A stretch of 36,427 bases of DNA from Gammaproteobacteria bacterium (GTDB lineage Bacteria; Pseudomonadota; Gammaproteobacteria; Ga0077536), in contig JADLEV010000044.1 of the NCBI GenBank assembly GCA_020845935.1, positions 1 to 36,427 of the forward strand. The letters are read 5' to 3'. Positions 25,150-35,598 of the stretch are shown piece after piece. The notes beneath the pieces were generated by a model that saw only the letters and a program-made list of their open reading frames with translations, was not told the origin of the DNA and did not search any database. A program made the position numbers and the translations under genes. How positions within the stretch are numbered: the first letter of the stretch is position 1; every line of letters begins with the position of its first letter.

Positions 25150-26571
25150 TCAGCGCCTGGCCAGGCCGAGGACGACGCTCGATGCCGCGACCTTGCCATC
25201 GCTCGCGTAGGCTTCGTGGTTGATTTCGATCTCGCTCTGCTTGTACAGGTAGTTGACCATCATCCCGGCCGACTCGCGCAGGCCCTTGGCCGAGGTATCG
25301 CCGAGCCAGTTGATCCGCTCGATGCGCGCACCGTTGGAGAGGTGAAAGCGCGCGACGGCATCCTGTGGCCGCCCGTCCGCTCGCGTCTCGCGTACCAGGT
25401 AGCGCGCGCAGAGCCGCGTCAAAGGCGCTTCCAGCAGGCGCACCGCCTCGGTCTGCGCGGGCCACGGCCCGGCGAGCAGGCTCGCCAGCGCCTCACCGGC
25501 TGAGGCCTTGTTTGTGAGTTGCAACAGAGCTTGCGCCTCGGCGGGCAGCAACAGATCCCCATGGGGATCTGCGAGCAGCGGCTCGATCCAGGATCGGAAT
25601 CCCGGAACCGGCGAGAGCGTCGCGAAGATCTCGATCCTGGGGAAGTCCTGCGCGAGCAGGTCCACCACCCGCTTGATCAGGAAGTTGCCGAAGCTGATGC
25701 CGGCGAGTCCCCGTTGCGCGTTCGAGATGGAGTAGAAAATCGCCGCCTTGGCCTCCTGCGGATCGAGCGCGGCGGCGCTTTCATCCAGGAGCGCCTGGAT
25801 GTTGCCGGCCATCTGCGTGACCAGCGCCACCTCGACGAAGATCAGCGGCTCGTCGGGCATGCGGGGATGGAAGAAGGCGAAGCAGCGCCGGTCGGAATCG
25901 AGCCGGTTTTTCAGATCCTGCCAGGACTGGATCGCGTGTACCGCCTCATAGCGGATCAGCTTTTCCAGCAGCGCGGCCGAGGTGTCCCAGGTGATCCGCC
26001 GCAGTTCCAGGAAACCGACATCGAACCAGGCGGCCAGCATCCGCCGCAGATCATCGTCAAGACCTTGCAGCGCCACGTCGCCGCGCAGGCGCTGCAGCAC
26101 ATCGGCGCGGAGATCGACCAGGAACTTGACGCCATCGGGCAGTGCGGTGAATTGGGTCAGCAGCCTGGCGCGCGGCGGGATCAGCGCCTCGCGGAGCTTC
26201 GCCTCGGCAAGGCGGCGCGAGGCATCGTCCTCGGCCGCCAGAAACTCCGCCGCGGCGGCGCTGACGGCCTCCTGGTCGGTCGCGAACTCCTCGGCCAGCA
26301 GCGACAGGAACCGGTGTTTGCCGTCCTCGTCGAGCGCGAGGTAGAGGTGACCCAGATCGGCGGCGCGGGCGCGCGCCGAGACGTCACCACCGCGCGCCTC
26401 GATGCAGGCGGTCACGCGGGCGCGCACGCGCACGAGATCCGCCTCCGGCAGCGACGGATCGCAGGCGGAGCCCGCCAGCCGCAAGCGTGCGGCATCGGCG
26501 ATGCGGCGCCACTGCTCCAGCAACGTGTGCATCGTGCGATCGAGCAGTGAGGTCGGCTGGTTCGTGGTCAT
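25150..26571 (-). CDS. Malonyl-CoA decarboxylase
   Basis: This 473-aa enzyme converts malonyl-CoA to acetyl-CoA and CO2. It has the helical N-terminal domain (to about residue 170) and a GNAT-like catalytic domain with the S-N-A-Q-R-G-L-A-G-I-S-F-G-N region and a C-terminal A-R-F-H-L-S-N-G-A containing the catalytic His. Length and motifs match bacterial MCD. It is the first intact gene of a three-gene set, with the isomerase 14 nt downstream. A decayed xylA end lies 33 nt upstream on the same strand. Confidence 0.92.
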   Translation of the reverse strand: MTTNQPTSLLDRTMHTLLEQWRRIADAARLRLAGSACDPSLPEADLVRVRARVTACIEARGGDVSARARAADLGHLYLALDEDGKHRFLSLLAEEFATDQEAVSAAAAEFLAAEDDASRRLAEAKLREALIPPRARLLTQFTALPDGVKFLVDLRADVLQRLRGDVALQGLDDDLRRMLAAWFDVGFLELRRITWDTSAALLEKLIRYEAVHAIQSWQDLKNRLDSDRRCFAFFHPRMPDEPLIFVEVALVTQMAGNIQALLDESAAALDPQEAKAAIFYSISNAQRGLAGISFGNFLIKRVVDLLAQDFPRIEIFATLSPVPGFRSWIEPLLADPHGDLLLPAEAQALLQLTNKASAGEALASLLAGPWPAQTEAVRLLEAPLTRLCARYLVRETRADGRPQDAVARFHLSNGARIERINWLGDTSAKGLRESAGMMVNYLYKQSEIEINHEAYASDGKVAASSVVLGLARR

Positions 26572-26604
26572 GACTTTGATCTGGGTAGGGCGCCTGCGAC
26601 CAGG

Positions 26605-26855
26605 TTACCGATAGCGGTTGACGGTGTCTTCCAGCAACTCCTGCCGGCCCGAGCGCGGCGTCGGGTTGAGCTCATCGCCCAGTACGCGTGCCGCGTTCTC
26701 TTCGAGCGAACCGTCTCCCGCCGAGCATCCGTTGCGCCGCCGCGCTCTGCCAGCCAGCATAGCGCGCCTCCAGCGGCACTTCGAGGGCACCGTCTTCGAA
26801 TATCCGCGCCGCGGCGAGCAGGGCTCTGGCGCAGCAATCCCTCGCGCGTACCGCC
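26605..26855 (-). pseudogene. xylA: Xylose isomerase (xylA) 3' remnant, frameshifted
   Basis: Read on the minus strand, 26855-26717 encodes [16 protein letters not shown] and R-Y-A-G-W-Q-S, then Q-R-M-L-G-G. After a one-base insertion (the base at 26716) the next frame continues D-G-S-L-E-E and ends S-G-R-Q-E-L-L-E-D-T-V-N-R-Y-R before a TAA. Together this is the C-terminal 80 or so residues of xylose isomerase (compare the A-R-M-I-E-D-G, R-Y-S-G-W-N and S-G-R-Q-E-Q-L-E-N-L-V-N of E. coli XylA). The N-terminal four-fifths is absent; transposase sequence lies there instead. Confidence 0.8.
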
Positions 26856-26902
26856 ATCGTGAGACGCGCAGGCGATGGCGCGACTGAAATGAAAGCTGGA
26901 AC

Positions 26903-27901
26903 CTACTCGATGGCCCTGGCGTAAAGCACTCGCAAGCGATCGACGCCTCGGATCCAATGCCATCCTCGGCGCATGGCGAGAGATTGCAGACGCCTGGGTG
27001 CGCCGATGAAGGATTCGAAGCGTGCTTGGCGCGCGAACACAGTGCTGAGCCAGGTGCCGGGATTGAGGCTGAGTCGGCACAATAGCGATGAAGGCATTTC
27101 CGGGATGAATCCTCACTTGCCGGGAACGGCGCAACGTCCAGTCGACGCGGCGGGTTCCAGATAGTCGCGCCACCGAAACGGAAGCGCATCGATGTCCTCG
27201 GCGTGCCCGGCGAAGGGCAAGAGTCGAGGCCAAGCCGCGCGCGGTCCTTGGGCTGGGCTCATTTCTGGTGTTTGCATCCGCTGCTGCACCGAGGTGAATT
27301 CTGAGGTGGCAAGAGACTCGGCCAACTGCGCCCGGATGGGATTCAGATCGACATAGGTCATGGCGGTCAACAGCGCACCCGCATTGAACAGTGCCTGCGA
27401 CTTGAAACGGCCCTCCCAGAACCGGCCGGTGCAGCCGTCCTCGGCGTTGGCCTGCCGGGCGAGCGATTGGTTGAGACAAGGCATGAACCAGCTCCAGTCC
27501 GCGAGCCGGGCGCGCCACAGGTTCAGCGTCGCCTGAACCTGCGCCTGCTCGGCGGCGGTCAGGGATTCCTCCTGGAGATAGCGTTGGATGATTACCGGTC
27601 CGGTGAAGAACCGGGTCCAGCGCTGGGCAACTTCTCTGTCAGTCCAGACCAAGACCCGCTCGGGTGAGAGTCGGGCGACCAGATGCTAATGATTGTTCAT
27701 GACCGCGCGCGTGCAGAGCTCGGTGGCGAAGGCTTCAGTCAACGATGCCAGCCGCTCGCGGCCCCAACTCTTGCAATGCTCGAACGACTTACCCGTGACC
27801 GGATCGTCACCGCAAAGCAAGGCACGCCGGACGCAGCGGCCGATGCAGTGGTAATAAGGGTTATCGATGACGGAAACGAGACTGCTGCGGGGCCGTGTCA
27901 T
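26903..27901 (-). pseudogene. RAYT (REP-associated Y1 HUH transposase) with two in-frame stops
   Basis: One continuous frame from ATG 27901 to TAG 26903 encodes a 332-codon transposase of the gammaproteobacterial RAYT type. It starts N-P-Y-Y-H-C-I-G-R-C-V-R-R, contains Q-A-N-A-E-D-G-C-T-G-R-F-W-E-G-R-F-K-S-Q and Y-V-D-L-N-P-I-R-A, and ends R-G-W-H-W-I-R-G. A TAG at 27688-27686 falls between the two His of the HUH motif (N-N-H-stop-H-L-V), where the family has Tyr. A TGA at 27115-27113 replaces what is probably an Arg (K-[R]-G-F-I-P). No frameshift is visible, so decay is recent or the stops are tolerated. Confidence 0.85.
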
Positions 27902-28240: not shown

Positions 28241-28504
28241 ATGAAGAAGACACGATATGCGGAAGTGCAGATGGTCAAGATCCTGCGCGAGGCAGACAAG
28301 ATGCCCGTGGCAGAAGTGGCCAAGAAGTACGCCGTCAGCGACCTGACGATCGACGCCTGGCGCAAGCGCTTTGGCCAACTACAGGCAGTCGACGTCAAGC
28401 GACTGCGTCAGCTTGAGGTGGAGAACAGCCGCATGAAGAAGCTGGTGGCCGAACGGGATCTGGATATCGAGATCCTGCAGGAAGTCGCCGCAAAAAAATG
28501 GTGA
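28241..28504 (+). CDS. IS3-family transposase OrfA
   Basis: This 87-aa DNA-binding half of an IS3-family transposase is probably of the IS407-like subgroup. It has a helix-turn-helix (V-A-E-V-A-K-K-Y-A-V-S-D-L-T-I-D-A-W) and a C-terminal leucine-rich coiled coil (L-R-Q-L-E-V-E-N, then L-V-A-E-R-D-L-D-I-E-I-L). It starts after GAAGCGAGGGGACC. The heptamer A-AAA-AAA (28492-28498) is in the correct phase for the -1 frameshift that normally makes OrfAB. With orfB truncated, only OrfA or a very short fusion can be made. Confidence 0.85.
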   Translation: MKKTRYAEVQMVKILREADKMPVAEVAKKYAVSDLTIDAWRKRFGQLQAVDVKRLRQLEVENSRMKKLVAERDLDIEILQEVAAKKW

Positions 28505-30397: not shown

Positions 30398-31407
30398 CAG
30401 ATATCGATGCAAATCTTGCCGATGTGCCGGCGCGCGCGCAGATGCTCCAGCGCGGCGCGCAGCTCGGCGAGCGGGAAGACGCGGTCGATCACCGGTGCCA
30501 GCCGGTGTTGCACGACCGCCGCGACCAGTTCGCGCAACATCGCGCGGCTGCCCGGCGAAATGCCCTGGAGACGTACGTTCTGCATGATCGCGACCGGGAT
30601 GTTCAGTTCGGCGCGCGCGCCGCCGAGCACCCCGATCACGCTGATCATGCCGCCGATGCGCACCGCGCGCAGCGATTGGCGGAAGGTGTCACCGCCACCG
30701 GTTTCGACGACGTGATCGACACCACGGCCGCCGGTCAGCTTGACGATGGTCTTGCCCCAATCGGGGTCGGCGCGATAGTTGATGACGTGCGCCGCGCCGA
30801 GCGCACGCAACCGGTCGAGCTTCAGATCGCTCGAGGACAGCGCGAACACCTCGGCGCCGGCGAGCCGCGCGATCTGCACCGCGAACAACGCCACGCCGCC
30901 GGTGCCCTGCGTCAGTACCGTCTGCCCCGGTCCAATCTCGCCAAGTTCGATCAGCGCATGCCAGGCGGTTGCCGCGGCGCAGGGCAGCGTCGCCGCATCG
31001 TGGAACGACAGCGACTCGGGGATTTCGACGACGGCATCCTCGCGAAACGTCCGCAGTTCGGCCGCGACGCCATCGCAGCGTGCACCGAGATCGTGATCGA
31101 AACAGCCGGGCAGTGGCGGACCGGCTTGCCAGTCCGGACAGAAACAGGAGATGACGCGATCGCCGATGCGCCAGCGGCTGACACCGGGGCCGAGTTCGAC
31201 CACTTCGCCGGCGCCGTCCGACAGCGGGATCAGGTCACCCTGTTTCTGCATCGAGCCATAACCGCCGCCGGCGGCGATCAGATCGCGGTAGTTCAGCGAC
31301 GCGGCGCGCAATCGGACCAGAATCTCGCCGGGGCCAGGTTGCGGCGCCGGGCGCTCGACGAGGTGCAGATTGTCGAGCCCGATCGGGTCGATGATGGCTG
31401 TGCGCAT
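30397..31407 (-). CDS. Zinc-independent alcohol dehydrogenase / quinone oxidoreductase (MDR)
   Basis: This 336-aa MDR-superfamily enzyme has an N-terminal GroES-like domain (S-L-N-Y-R-D-L, I-G-D-R-V) and a Rossmann domain with T-Q-G-T-G-G-V-A-L-F-A-V-Q-I-A (about 163-177). No structural-zinc cysteine cluster is seen, so NAD(P)H:quinone or enoyl reduction is likely. It is only distantly similar to the exported MDR at 8629 and has no signal peptide. It overlaps both neighbours by one base (TGATG at each junction), so its translation is coupled to mscL and to the acyl-CoA dehydrogenase. Confidence 0.88.
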   Translation of the reverse strand: MRTAIIDPIGLDNLHLVERPAPQPGPGEILVRLRAASLNYRDLIAAGGGYGSMQKQGDLIPLSDGAGEVVELGPGVSRWRIGDRVISCFCPDWQAGPPLPGCFDHDLGARCDGVAAELRTFREDAVVEIPESLSFHDAATLPCAAATAWHALIELGEIGPGQTVLTQGTGGVALFAVQIARLAGAEVFALSSSDLKLDRLRALGAAHVINYRADPDWGKTIVKLTGGRGVDHVVETGGGDTFRQSLRAVRIGGMISVIGVLGGARAELNIPVAIMQNVRLQGISPGSRAMLRELVAAVVQHRLAPVIDRVFPLAELRAALEHLRARRHIGKICIDI

Positions 31408-31829
31408 CAGTTCCGCTTGGCCAGCAGATCGCGGATCTCCTCGAGCAGCACCTCGTTGCGCGGCGGCGCGGCGGGTGCCGCCGGCGGCTGTTCCCGCTTC
31501 AGCCGGTTCAGGCCCTTGACCAGCAGAAACACGCAGAAGGCAACGATGATGAAGTCGAGGATCGTGTTGATGAACGAGCCGTAGTTGATGGTCGCGGCAC
31601 CGGCTGCCTTGGCGGCTTCGAGGCTGGCGTAATCGCCCTCGCTGAGATTGATGAACAGATCGGAAAAGTCGACGTTGCCCATCAGCTTGCCGATCGGCGG
31701 CATCAGGACATCGTTGACCATCGACGTCACGATCTTGCCGAACGCGGCGCCGATGATGATGCCGACCGCCATGTCGGCGACGTTGCCTCGTACCGCGAAC
31801 TCCTTGAACTCCTTCAGCATGTTGCTCAT
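31407..31829 (-). CDS. mscL: Large-conductance mechanosensitive channel
   Basis: This 140-aa inner-membrane channel opens under membrane tension to relieve hypo-osmotic shock. The N-terminal helix [14 protein letters not shown] is followed by TM1 with the glycine-rich gate [10 protein letters not shown] and V-N-D-x-L-M-P-P-I-G. A periplasmic loop, TM2 (about 86-106) and a charged cytoplasmic tail complete it. A strong GGAGGGGG ribosome site precedes the ATG. It is the first gene of a coupled operon with two lipid-type oxidoreductases. Confidence 0.95.
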
Positions 31830-31903: not shown

Positions 31904-32734
31904 TTAGGTCTGCGCCAGGCCGACGATTTCGGTCGTCAGTGCGATCGGATTGACGCTCGAGAAGTTCGGCACGTCGTCGCGCAGCGTTTGCCCGTGCTGG
32001 GTGCCGGCCTTGTCGAACACCTCCTGCTTCGCGATGTAGATGTTGATGCTTCCCACATAAGGCGCCTTCGAGCCATCCTGCGCGGCGACGCCGCGGCGCA
32101 GTTCGAAGCGATGGATCGCGTCGGCGCCATACAACTTCATGATCAGCGGCATGTGGTGATCACGATAGTAGTTGGTATCGAACTTCACGCCGTCCGAGTT
32201 CGGATAGGCGATCGCCAGACAGCGCTGGCCGATCTTGGTCGCTGACGAGGGCGAACCGGCCATGCCGATGATTTCGTCGGTCTGGATCACCGGTTGCGCG
32301 TTGGTGAAATTCGGTACGTCCTCGATCATCTTCGGGCCGTGCTGCTGGCCACCTTCATCGAACTTCTGCTGATCGCCGACCCAGATATTGATCGACGCGA
32401 CGAAGTCGGCGGGTGGCGCGCCTTCTGGCGATATCACCTTGCGCAGTTCGAAGCGCTGAATCGCGTTGCCGAACAGATCCATGATCAGTTTCAGATGATG
32501 GTCGCGGTAGTAGTCGAAGTCGAACCTGGTGTCCGCGGCCTTGGGATACAGGATGGTCAGACAACGGCCACCAGCGACCGAGTCCTTGGCGTATGCGCCG
32601 CGTGGCAGCGTCGCGCCAAAGATGCCGGCGACGGTGCCGAGCGTGAGCGCCCCTCCGGCGGCTTTCATCATCGTGCGCCGCTGTGCGGCGTATGGGGTCA
32701 GGATTTCATTGTGCTGCGAATCATGGTGCGACAT
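31904..32734 (-). CDS. Tat-exported protein with two tandem EthD-like domains
   Basis: This 276-aa protein has a twin-arginine signal (Arg19-Arg20, then a hydrophobic stretch to about residue 49, G-A-Y-A). Two similar halves follow (about 55-157 and 170-272). Each has R-C-L, Y-Y-R-D-H-H, R-F-E-L-R, S-I-N-I, Q-H-G and D-V-P-N-F in the same order. The pattern is of EthD-type ferredoxin-like (dimeric alpha/beta barrel) domains, which usually work as cytoplasmic dimers. Here a tandem copy would form the pseudo-dimer in one exported chain. The ATG at 32734 has GGGAGG upstream. The function is unknown. Confidence 0.8.
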
Positions 32735-32769
32735 GGTGCGGTGCCTCCCTCGCTTGGAATGGGTAATCG

Positions 32770-32775
32770 ATTGTA
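32770..32775 (-). promoter_or_regulatory. Possible -10 box of the EthD-like gene
   Basis: TACAAT on the minus strand is one mismatch from consensus and lies 35 nt before the start codon, leaving room for a leader with GGGAGG. No good -35 is seen. Confidence 0.35.
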
Positions 32776-32836
32776 GCATCGGGCCTTGGCGTGCCTGGTC
32801 TGGCAATCGCGGCAATTCGTCGGTTCCCGCCGCCGG

Positions 32837-33610
32837 CTATTCGCTGATCAGTTGCGATGTATAGCCGGCTTCATCAACCGGATTCAGGTCGTTCTCGGCA
32901 CAGACGAATTCGTACAGTTCGCTGTCACGGTCGCGACTGTAGGCGAACCGGCGGTGCCACGGTTTCGCCAGGGCCTTGGCATCGGTCACGACCATCTCGA
33001 TGACCAAGGTGTCCGGCTCGCCCGGCGCGAGGTGAAAGCGTTCGCTGATCCGCAACTGATCGCTATGGCGCATGCCCTGACCGAGGTCGACCGTGTCCTT
33101 GATGCCGACCGTGTCGACGACCAGGGTGTCGCCGTCCCAGCTGCCAATCGAATGGCCGAAGAACCCGGTCTCGAGATCGTCCGGATGCGGACGGCCATCG
33201 GTCCAGATCTTGCGCCACTGCATCCAGGCCTCGTGCAGGATGGTGACGCGGCCGGGCGTGAACAGGAATTCGATCGGGTACTGCGCCGTGCCCATCATGC
33301 CCGGCATTCCCGGCGGCCGGCAGTTCGAGCCGCGCCGCGGCGCCTGGCCCTGGTTGTCGCGGACGAGTTGCTGCCAGCGCTGGTAATCGGCGAGGTATTC
33401 GCCGATGAACTCCGGCTGTTCGACTTTGGTGCCGGCCGGAGTGCGCTGCAGAAACCACACTCCGCCCCAGTCCGGCAGCTTGTCGAGTGTCGCATAGTGC
33501 CCTTGCGGATGCGCGGTGGCGGGAGGCTCGGCGAGCGCGGCCGGAGTGCTGGCGATGGTGGTGAGGAAAACGGCGGCTTTGATACCGGATGAGGAAATCG
33601 ATACGCGCAT
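32837..33610 (-). CDS. Exported protein of the G-x-W-x-G-D-x-L-V-V family, copy 1
   Basis: This 257-aa protein has a signal peptide ending at about residue 27 (A-A-L-A). The mature protein has Cys97 in C-R-P-P-G-M-P, D-G-R-P-H (138-142) and S-I-G-S-W-D-G-D-T-L-V-V-D-T (154-167), followed by beta-rich sequence. The gene at 34720-35598 shares all three blocks in the same order and near-identical spacing, so the two are paralogues. No function is known to me; a periplasmic lipocalin-like or beta-barrel binding protein is a guess. The ATG at 33610 has GAGGGAG upstream. It diverges from the DUF6152 pair. Confidence 0.75.
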   Translation of the reverse strand: MRVSISSSGIKAAVFLTTIASTPAALAEPPATAHPQGHYATLDKLPDWGGVWFLQRTPAGTKVEQPEFIGEYLADYQRWQQLVRDNQGQAPRRGSNCRPPGMPGMMGTAQYPIEFLFTPGRVTILHEAWMQWRKIWTDGRPHPDDLETGFFGHSIGSWDGDTLVVDTVGIKDTVDLGQGMRHSDQLRISERFHLAPGEPDTLVIEMVVTDAKALAKPWHRRFAYSRDRDSELYEFVCAENDLNPVDEAGYTSQLISE

Positions 33611-33770
33611 GGGATCTCCCTCGTTCTCCCGACACACGGTCAGGAGTGGATTGTGGGGCTGGTGCCAACTATATATGTATGGCAGCAGGGTGGCGTAGTC
33701 TTTATCGCAGTGTACCGGGCACGGTGGGGGGATAGCGTGCCTTCGTTGCTCACAGCCGAGGGGGATTCCA

Positions 33771-34181
33771 ATGAACCGATGGTTCTGTAGGGTTGCATTC
33801 CTGTGTGTGCTCAGTGGCAGTGCCGTGGCGCATCATTCCTTCGCTTTGTTCGACCAGACCAGGAAGATCACGCTGGCGGGCACCGTGAAGCAGTTCGTCT
33901 GGACCAATCCGCACGCGCTGATTTATCTCGATGTCACCGGCGAACAAGGCGCCATCGACACCTGGCAACTGGCGATGAACAGCCCCAACAATCTGCGGCG
34001 GCAGGGTTGGCGCAAGGACACGCTGCAAGCCGGGCAGAAGGTCACCATCGTGCTGCATCCGCTGCGCGACGGCAGCAAGGGTGGCTTGTTTCTGGCGGTG
34101 ACGCTTGCGGACGGTACCGTGCTCGGCGATCCGAACCGTGCCCCGAGCGACGGACCCATCAACGTGCCGACCGTGCCATGA
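33771..34181 (+). CDS. DUF6152 family exported protein, copy 1
   Basis: This small 136-aa protein has a signal peptide whose predicted cleavage (A-V-A, residues 18-20) leaves a mature chain starting with His21-His22-Ser-Phe. The family pattern G-T-V-K-x-F-x-W-T-N-P-H (about 37-48), S-P-N-N-L-R-R-x-G-W and H-P-L-R-D-G is present. DUF6152 has no known function. The strong GAGGGGG site before the ATG supports this start. The stop overlaps a possible ATG of the second copy (ATGA at 34178). Confidence 0.85.
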   Translation: MNRWFCRVAFLCVLSGSAVAHHSFALFDQTRKITLAGTVKQFVWTNPHALIYLDVTGEQGAIDTWQLAMNSPNNLRRQGWRKDTLQAGQKVTIVLHPLRDGSKGGLFLAVTLADGTVLGDPNRAPSDGPINVPTVP

Positions 34182-34222
34182 GCGTGGGTCGGGTAGCTTG
34201 TTGCGAAAGGGGATGGCAGGCG

Positions 34223-34627
34223 ATGAAAAAAGCGATGATTGCGATACTGACGGCGGCGCTGCTGGTGTATTCGGTACCGGCACGGCTGCATCATTCCGGC
34301 GCGATGTACGACCAGACGCGCCGGGTCGATATCGCCGGCGTGGTCACCGAATTCAATTGGTCCAATCCGCACGCGTCGTTTCGGGTCGATGTCACCGGCA
34401 GCGACGGCAAGATCAGCAGTTGGCCCGTGGTCATGGGCAGTCCGAACAACCTGGTTAGGCGCGGTTGGAAACGAACCTCGCTGCAAAAGGGTGATCGGGT
34501 GACAGTCACGATCTTTCCGCTGCGCGACGGCACGCCCGGCGGCTATTACGTCAGCGTCTTGCTCGCCGACGGCAAGCGGCTGGATGGTGACCCGCCGGAG
34601 GCAGGCGCGGGCGAAGGCGCGCGTTAG
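34223..34627 (+). CDS. DUF6152 family exported protein, copy 2
   Basis: This 134-aa protein is a paralogue of the preceding gene. After the signal peptide (about 1-20) it shows His23-His24-S-G, F-x-W-S-N-P-H (44-50), S-P-N-N-L-V-R-R-G-W and F-P-L-R-D-G, matching copy 1 throughout. The ATG at 34223 directly precedes a K-K n-region and has GCAGG upstream. An in-frame ATG at 34178 that overlaps copy 1 would add 15 residues and spoil the signal peptide. The two copies are cotranscribed and divergent enough for distinct roles. Confidence 0.82.
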   Translation: MKKAMIAILTAALLVYSVPARLHHSGAMYDQTRRVDIAGVVTEFNWSNPHASFRVDVTGSDGKISSWPVVMGSPNNLVRRGWKRTSLQKGDRVTVTIFPLRDGTPGGYYVSVLLADGKRLDGDPPEAGAGEGAR

Positions 34628-34654
34628 GGAAGTCTTGCGGATCAGTGCCTCGGA

Positions 34655-34683
34655 GGCTGGTGCGGATCGGTGCCGGACCAGCC
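34655..34683. terminator. Stem-loop between convergent genes
   Basis: GGCTGGT (34655-34661) and ACCAGCC (34677-34683) form a 7-bp stem around a 15-nt loop, in the gap between DUF6152 copy 2 and the convergent GD-LVV paralogue. No T-run follows, so termination is uncertain. Confidence 0.3.
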
Positions 34684-34719
34684 TTCTCTGCACAGGTGCA
34701 GGAGGGACTCGATCCGAGC

Positions 34720-35598
34720 CTACCTAGCTCCGGTCGCCTCGCGCTCACGACGCTCCGTCTCGGCCTGACCCTTGTCGGTCCCTGGAATGTCCTCGTTCAG
34801 ATTCGGCAGGCACTCGACTTCCGGAATATCGCTGTAGTCGGAGCGCAGCCAGCGTTTGGTGCTCTTCCATTCACCCTTCCAGTTGTTCGGGTCGGTCAGC
34901 GTGAATTCGATTTCGAGCATCGTGCCGTCCTCCACCAGCCGATAGCGCTCGACGATCTCGAACGCGTCACTGATCGGAATGCCGCTGTCGATCCAGTGCT
35001 CGTTGGTTTCGAAATACTTGGTGTGGACCACCAGTTCATCGCCCTCCCAGCGGCCGATGGATTCACCGTTGTAGGTCGGGATGGCGAGATCGGGATCGGT
35101 GTGCTGACGGCCGTCGAGGTAAATGATCCGCAGGCTGTTGGTGAAGCCGTAGACCTGATAGATCGCGGTCGGCAACTGGATCATCGCGATCGGCCAGACC
35201 CGGGTCATGATCATTGGCATGCCGGCCGGATAGCAGCGGCCGATGCTGTCGCGGTAGGACCTGCCGGCCGCGCGTGCCTCGGCCGCTTCGCGCAGTGCGG
35301 TCTGCCCCGGCTCGAAGAATTCGGGATACGGCGGGCCGAACATAAAGTCCGAGAAGGCGCGGCGCAGGTCGATGAACCAGGTGCTGGTCAGATCGAATGG
35401 CGGCTTTGGCCGCGGCGCCGCGAGATTCTGCGGCGCCAGCGCGCCGTAGTAGCCATCGTGCTTGTGCGACAACTCGTCGAGCTGCTCCTGATTCAAGCCA
35501 CCGGTCCGCTGCCGCTGCGCGGTGGCGGTCGTTGCCGCAAGTATGAAGGTCAACAGCAGAACGATATCGACGCCGCGGCGTCGGCCCAATCGGTTCAT
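34720..35598 (-). CDS. Exported protein of the G-x-W-x-G-D-x-L-V-V family, copy 2
   Basis: This 292-aa protein has an Arg-rich n-region and a signal peptide ending near residue 27 (A-T-A). It shares with the gene at 32837-33610 the blocks C-Y-P-A-G-M-P (Cys122), L-D-G-R-Q-H (161-166) and S-I-G-R-W-E-G-D-E-L-V-V-H-T (180-193). The N-terminal 90 residues and the charged Glu/Arg tail are its own. The ATG has GGAGGAG upstream. Together with copy 1 it flanks the two DUF6152 genes. The function is unknown. Confidence 0.75.
   Translation of the reverse strand: MNRLGRRRGVDIVLLLTFILAATTATAQRQRTGGLNQEQLDELSHKHDGYYGALAPQNLAAPRPKPPFDLTSTWFIDLRRAFSDFMFGPPYPEFFEPGQTALREAAEARAAGRSYRDSIGRCYPAGMPMIMTRVWPIAMIQLPTAIYQVYGFTNSLRIIYLDGRQHTDPDLAIPTYNGESIGRWEGDELVVHTKYFETNEHWIDSGIPISDAFEIVERYRLVEDGTMLEIEFTLTDPNNWKGEWKSTKRWLRSDYSDIPEVECLPNLNEDIPGTDKGQAETERREREATGAR

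Follow-up and report, generated by a model that had tools for sequence, protein, structure and literature searches.

The question raised by this locus is whether two exported DUF6152 proteins and the two proteins of another family that enclose them act as a single device in the cell envelope. The window, that is, the whole stretch of DNA that was analysed, comprises 36,427 nucleotides of a gammaproteobacterial contig (JADLEV010000044.1), and its source assembly is a 2.16-Mb draft judged to be 62.5% complete. The genes concerned are the following; to the right of the last of them a membrane transporter gene begins.

31407-31829, minus strand: mscL, left of the EthD gene
31904..32734, minus strand: Tat-exported protein with a double EthD domain (ORF 31904-32815, likely ATG at 32734)
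32837..33610, minus strand: G1, GD-LVV family protein with no Pfam or NCBIfam model (ORF 32837-33637, likely ATG at 33610)
33771..34181, plus strand: D1, DUF6152 protein (PF19649) with a signal peptide and a predicted OB-fold
34223..34627, plus strand: D2, second DUF6152 protein (PF19649), about 40 bp downstream of D1
34720..35598, minus strand: G2, the other GD-LVV family member, in convergent orientation to D2

The initial annotation had described two DUF6152 paralogues flanked by two paralogues of a motif-defined family, and this was borne out, more strongly than first put: all the genes are present, the motifs are seen and the paralogy is real. In detail, D1 and D2 match the Pfam model of DUF6152 with E values of 2.8e-35 and 1.8e-30 (scores of 120.8 and 105.3 bits against a cut-off of 27) and share 51% identity (E 1e-43). 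G1 and G2 are 32% identical (BLASTP, E 1e-14) and carry the motifs CRPPGMP and CYPAGMP, DGR, and SIGSWDGDTLVV and SIGRWEGDELVV, respectively. A hydrophobic N-terminal core is present in each of the four proteins. The G+C content of the quartet is a little below that of the window. As a check for contamination of the contig, thrC was examined and found to have its close matches within the same family and class, which leaves the origin of the quartet itself undecided. Elsewhere in the window, a transposase-like gene, by eye of the REP-associated type, is apparently split across two frames (26568-27901), and a short frame resembling an IS3-type OrfA transposase appears to be a remnant (28241-28504).

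The fifth protein had been proposed as a member of the same system, which did not hold. The EthD domain is called twice in it (Pfam E 3.4e-7), it belongs to TIGR02118 / PF07110 with a TIGR02118 score of 102.6 bits against a cut-off of 30.5, and its N-terminus has the Tat motif RR-T-M-M-K. Its gene has a G+C content of 0.608, compared with 0.66 for the remainder of the window. Among the loci examined the EthD profile matched the window alone; thus, this gene is a local neighbor downstream of G1, outside the conserved unit, and was ruled out as a component. The related claim that none of the five proteins has a known function needs correction in that EthD is a named family; G1 and G2 match no Pfam or NCBIfam family.

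In a test set beforehand, it was asked whether DUF6152 and the GD-LVV family occur mostly apart in other genomes, and they do not. Eighty related loci were fetched by similarity to D1 and D2, and in these a G gene lies within 1 kb of 138 of the 150 DUF6152 genes; near the other 12, some of them close to contig ends, no G gene was seen in the flanking sequence covered. Part of the neighborhood shared among the 80 loci is due to common descent. Since these loci are best matches and not a random draw, even samples of two classes were also used. In the Alphaproteobacteria (289 genomes), G was found in five genomes and DUF6152 in 45, and all five genomes with G have DUF6152, an overlap with a hypergeometric chance of about 1e-4 by our estimate from the counts. 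In the Gammaproteobacteria (321 genomes), DUF6152 was found in eight genomes and G in three, and both genomes with a strong DUF6152 match also have G. The search showed no DUF6152 in any of 35 other genomes of the window's family. A third DUF6152 gene of the window's own genome, placed on another contig, again adjoins a G gene.

All 37 genomes chosen through the loci contain both families, and the number of paralogues per genome reaches 94 for D and at least 73 for G. A very large expansion of paralogues is seen in the genomes of loci L061, L062 and L088 (G082, G083 and G092), where DUF6152 genes number 36 to 94 and those of the GD-LVV family at least 73. In Sphingobium nicotianae (G065), all eight D and all eight G genes among the matches listed are adjacent to each other, and we estimate that at the gene density of this genome a D gene would by chance be found no more than 1 kb away from a G gene in less than 1% of cases. 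D and G neighbors also recur on plasmids of Croceibacterium, Novosphingobium and Sphingobium, where they are annotated, if at all, as "DUF6152" and "hypothetical protein".

The phylogenetic trees separate D1 from D2 and G1 from G2 of the window, with support of 0.94 for D1, 0.95 for G1 and 1.0 for G2, while the deepest D2 grouping is poorly supported (0.16). Judging from these trees, D and G are each retained in two versions that parted long ago. Proteobacterial quartets contain one gene of each class, and the four classes are found together in 31 of 84 loci, with at least four arrangements. Most gammaproteobacterial quartets are arranged G1- D1+ D2+ G2-, as in the window, and those of sphingomonads G2+ D1+ D2+ G1+; further orders are D1+ D2+ G2+ G1- and the variant D D G2+ G1+. 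The two D genes of Acidobacteria are both placed on the D1 side of the tree, and the pair may there have arisen, or been homogenized, separately. The unit is found repeatedly, with its genes variously ordered, in Proteobacteria and Acidobacteria, and the persistence of the four classes together despite rearrangement argues for a joint function. The earlier suggestion of two versions of one device gains support from the same pattern.

In one alphaproteobacterial genome a single ORF of 381 amino acids (L108:4046-5191, minus strand) encodes a D domain and, behind it, a G domain. A search among the relatives of genome G397 gave no further D-G fusion. At L136:1381-2493 a GD-LVV match lies inside a long frame of 371 amino acids, which may be another fusion, and at L067:3432-5942 three GD-LVV genes stand in tandem on one strand.

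The expected co-occurrence across genomes was only in part confirmed: in the alphaproteobacterial sample all genomes with G have DUF6152, but a divergent branch of DUF6152 does without G. This single-copy branch (AHHGW type) is the usual one in the alphaproteobacterial sample. At 20 of its loci (L113-L132) no G gene was found within 3 kb, and in all 20 the DUF6152 gene directly adjoins a gene of the DUF6644 type with four transmembrane segments, often only a few bases away. DUF6152 as a whole is consequently not tied to G. Tandem pairs of DUF6644 genes also occur in the vicinity of D/G loci, in 15 cases out of 80, and no such gene was seen beside the window's own quartet. Taken together, the 20 loci and the pairs near quartets make D with DUF6644 look like the basic pair, which G would have joined in other lineages.

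The GD-LVV family was ruled out as a member of a known family. No Pfam match was found among 75 members scanned, no NCBIfam model applies, and the family profile gave no convincing match against PDB sequences. The AlphaFold2 model of G1 (mean pLDDT 86.1) resembles CRABP2 and CRBP1 in Foldseek (E about 6e-4, probability 1.00) and shows the calycin fold. The best matches reach TM values of about 0.3 on the query and 0.5-0.6 on the target, which indicates the same type of fold and not a near relationship. On the model, G is a predicted calycin barrel of the retinoid- and fatty-acid-binding type. Cysteines C106 and C246 are nearly invariant in the family, and the polar residues R142, E199 and D219 are invariant; the conserved polar residues (C106, R142, E199 and D219) would fit an enzyme as well. 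A search of open-access papers for a calycin family in Acidobacteria returned nothing relevant.

The AlphaFold2 model of D1, a confident one like that of G1 (mean pLDDT 85.8), resembles in Foldseek the OB-folds of LysRS, SSB and PriB, a likeness which is read as one of fold only because D is exported; the D profile gave only chance-level matches against PDB sequences. The signal peptide of D1 has its predicted cleavage at AVA|HHS. HHS is kept in 149 of 150 relatives, and in 137 of the 150 a site of the signal-peptidase type directly precedes it, so that the mature N-terminus of D is probably His-His-Ser/Gly. HH[SG] and then PH are conserved in 172 of 173 D proteins, a count which is biased upward, since HHS formed part of one of the two patterns by which the 80 loci were retrieved. 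All 23 divergent D proteins, which were found without that pattern, keep HH[SG]...PH.

The genes around the quartets give a hint of the substrate. For 15-16 of the 80 loci, a gene of the RPE65 family (stilbene-dioxygenase type) is present no more than about 8 kb away; with an average of about five such genes per genome, we estimate that about two of the 80 would be expected by chance. In the tree these neighbors fall into at least three separate clades, which suggests repeated association and not one inherited cluster (five of the 20 background sequences were wrong-frame picks forming a meaningless outgroup, and the rest were used). The one RPE65 gene compared with solved structures matched lignostilbene dioxygenases and their kin with E values of 1e-114 to 1e-105, and an apocarotenoid oxygenase with 1e-34. 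Next to gammaproteobacterial quartets there is a SnoaL-esterase fusion, the SnoaL part of which matches the SnoaL-like structures 8abt and 8abv, which we take to be those of the lyase LdpA. An exported protein of repeated SnoaL domains is positioned between the quartet and a gene of the lignostilbene-dioxygenase type in L013:9736-12756 (fused to an esterase), L016, L017, L022, L025 and L052. Genes of TonB receptors are common near quartets, which is weak evidence, as such genes are abundant in sphingomonads. For lignin dimers of the beta-1 and beta-5 types, a route through an NTF2 lyase and a lignostilbene dioxygenase (LSD) has been published (PMC11323797, PMC12997858). An RPE65/LSD gene was found in all 27 other genomes of the search, and the window's genome gave no match in its 62% complete assembly.

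Based on the above, G1-D1-D2-G2 probably form one functional unit, which is exported and probably periplasmic. That D and G are partners outside the inner membrane is very likely, judging from their linkage, the classes kept together and the fusion. In the mechanism that we prefer, G would hold a hydrophobic small molecule in its predicted barrel in the periplasm, D would bind G as an obligate partner and would dock on, or signal to, DUF6644 in the inner membrane, and a metal might sit at the invariant His-His...Pro-His set of D. Such a module would serve the uptake or the extracytoplasmic processing of hydrophobic compounds, which in several lineages could be lignin-type aromatic dimers or stilbenes, a last step that is conjectural for the genome of the window itself. 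The parts of this mechanism differ in strength: a ligand role of G is somewhat favored, the complete chain from the ligand of G through D to the membrane end at DUF6644 has a little less than an even chance, and a metal carried by the conserved histidines of D is doubtful. The widest proposal is speculative and somewhat unlikely as a whole, namely that DUF6152, the calycin family and DUF6644 compose a new envelope system of three components, with D coupling the G barrel to the membrane protein in a doubled heteromeric device; this would have multiplied to dozens of copies in Acidobacteria and in some Proteobacteria and would serve the capture or oxidative processing of plant-derived aromatics.

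Metal could also be the center of the system, if D were to bind copper or another metal through its N-terminal histidines and pass it to DUF6644, in the manner of CopC and CopD, with G added later as an accessory, either a supplier or a user of the metal. The copper histidine brace is defined by an N-terminal histidine and a further histidine (PMC10952591), and the sequence pattern of D, a predicted mature HH[SG] with a conserved PH, would be compatible with it. The two-gene unit of D and DUF6644 at all 20 loci without G agrees with such a role, as do the invariant H and K of DUF6644 and its weak matches to DUF2214 (3.5e-5), CopD (0.0011), SirB and UPF0093. The similarity to CopD is, however, weak, with the model matched by only three of 22 DUF6644 members (best E 0.0011); furthermore, D is modelled as an OB-fold, DUF6152 is the only family reported for it and that of CopC is not matched, and copper genes are not among the recurrent neighbors of the loci. 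A search of the PDB with DUF6644 gave no match. D-DUF6644 was not assigned to the CopC/CopD group itself, on account of the fold of D and the weak similarity to CopD, and the explanation through metal transfer is judged unlikely.

The barrel of G could instead belong to an extracytoplasmic enzyme of calycin fold and not to a carrier, D being its regulatory or metal-bearing subunit and the paralogue pairs acting on different hydrophobic substrates. The invariant polar residues and the catabolic gene neighbors speak for an enzyme, and dozens of D and G genes per genome (up to 94 and at least 73) would be expected of substrate-specific paralogues; yet the nearest folds are those of ligand-binding proteins and Pfam recognizes no catalytic family in G, which makes an enzyme improbable. 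That D and G merely spread together as a horizontal cassette, with no joint function, is highly improbable: the patchy distribution of DUF6152 (none of 35 genomes in the same family, eight of 321 in the class) and the slightly lower G+C of the quartet would agree with it, but the same classes are held across several gene orders, a D-G fusion exists, and the proximity of D and G exceeds what the gene density of S. nicotianae would produce.

A full-text search of the open-access literature found neither DUF6152 nor DUF6644 named in any paper, and no described system containing these families was found there. Three families with no assigned function, one of them with no database model, are joined in one recurrent unit, of which soil Acidobacteria and some Proteobacteria have dozens of copies per genome. 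An understanding of its role would help to explain hundreds of "hypothetical" genes and may uncover an envelope step so far missing from the handling of metals or of hydrophobic aromatics from plants. With the quartet, the D-G fusion found in nature and the pair of D and DUF6644, the question lends itself directly to experiment.

Among known families and systems, D1 and D2 belong to DUF6152 (PF19649), and DUF6644 (PF20349) is their neighbor in other genomes. In the pathways of LdpA/PcfL with lignostilbene dioxygenase from Novosphingobium and Sphingobium SYK-6, the NTF2/SnoaL and LSD components have homologues which adjoin some of the quartets, whereas the sections of their descriptions used here make no mention of the D/G quartet and the window's genome shows no LSD gene. 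The predicted barrel of G is most similar in fold to the intracellular lipid-binding proteins CRABP2 and CRBP1; unlike them, G is exported, bacterial and about twice as long, has a conserved cysteine pair and gives no sequence match. Similarly to CopC/CopD and to histidine-brace proteins, D is exported, has a predicted N-terminal histidine and is paired with a membrane protein of four transmembrane segments. Although D has a predicted OB-fold in place of the CopC fold and DUF6644 is only weakly CopD-like, by analogy the two may work in a CopC/CopD-like way.
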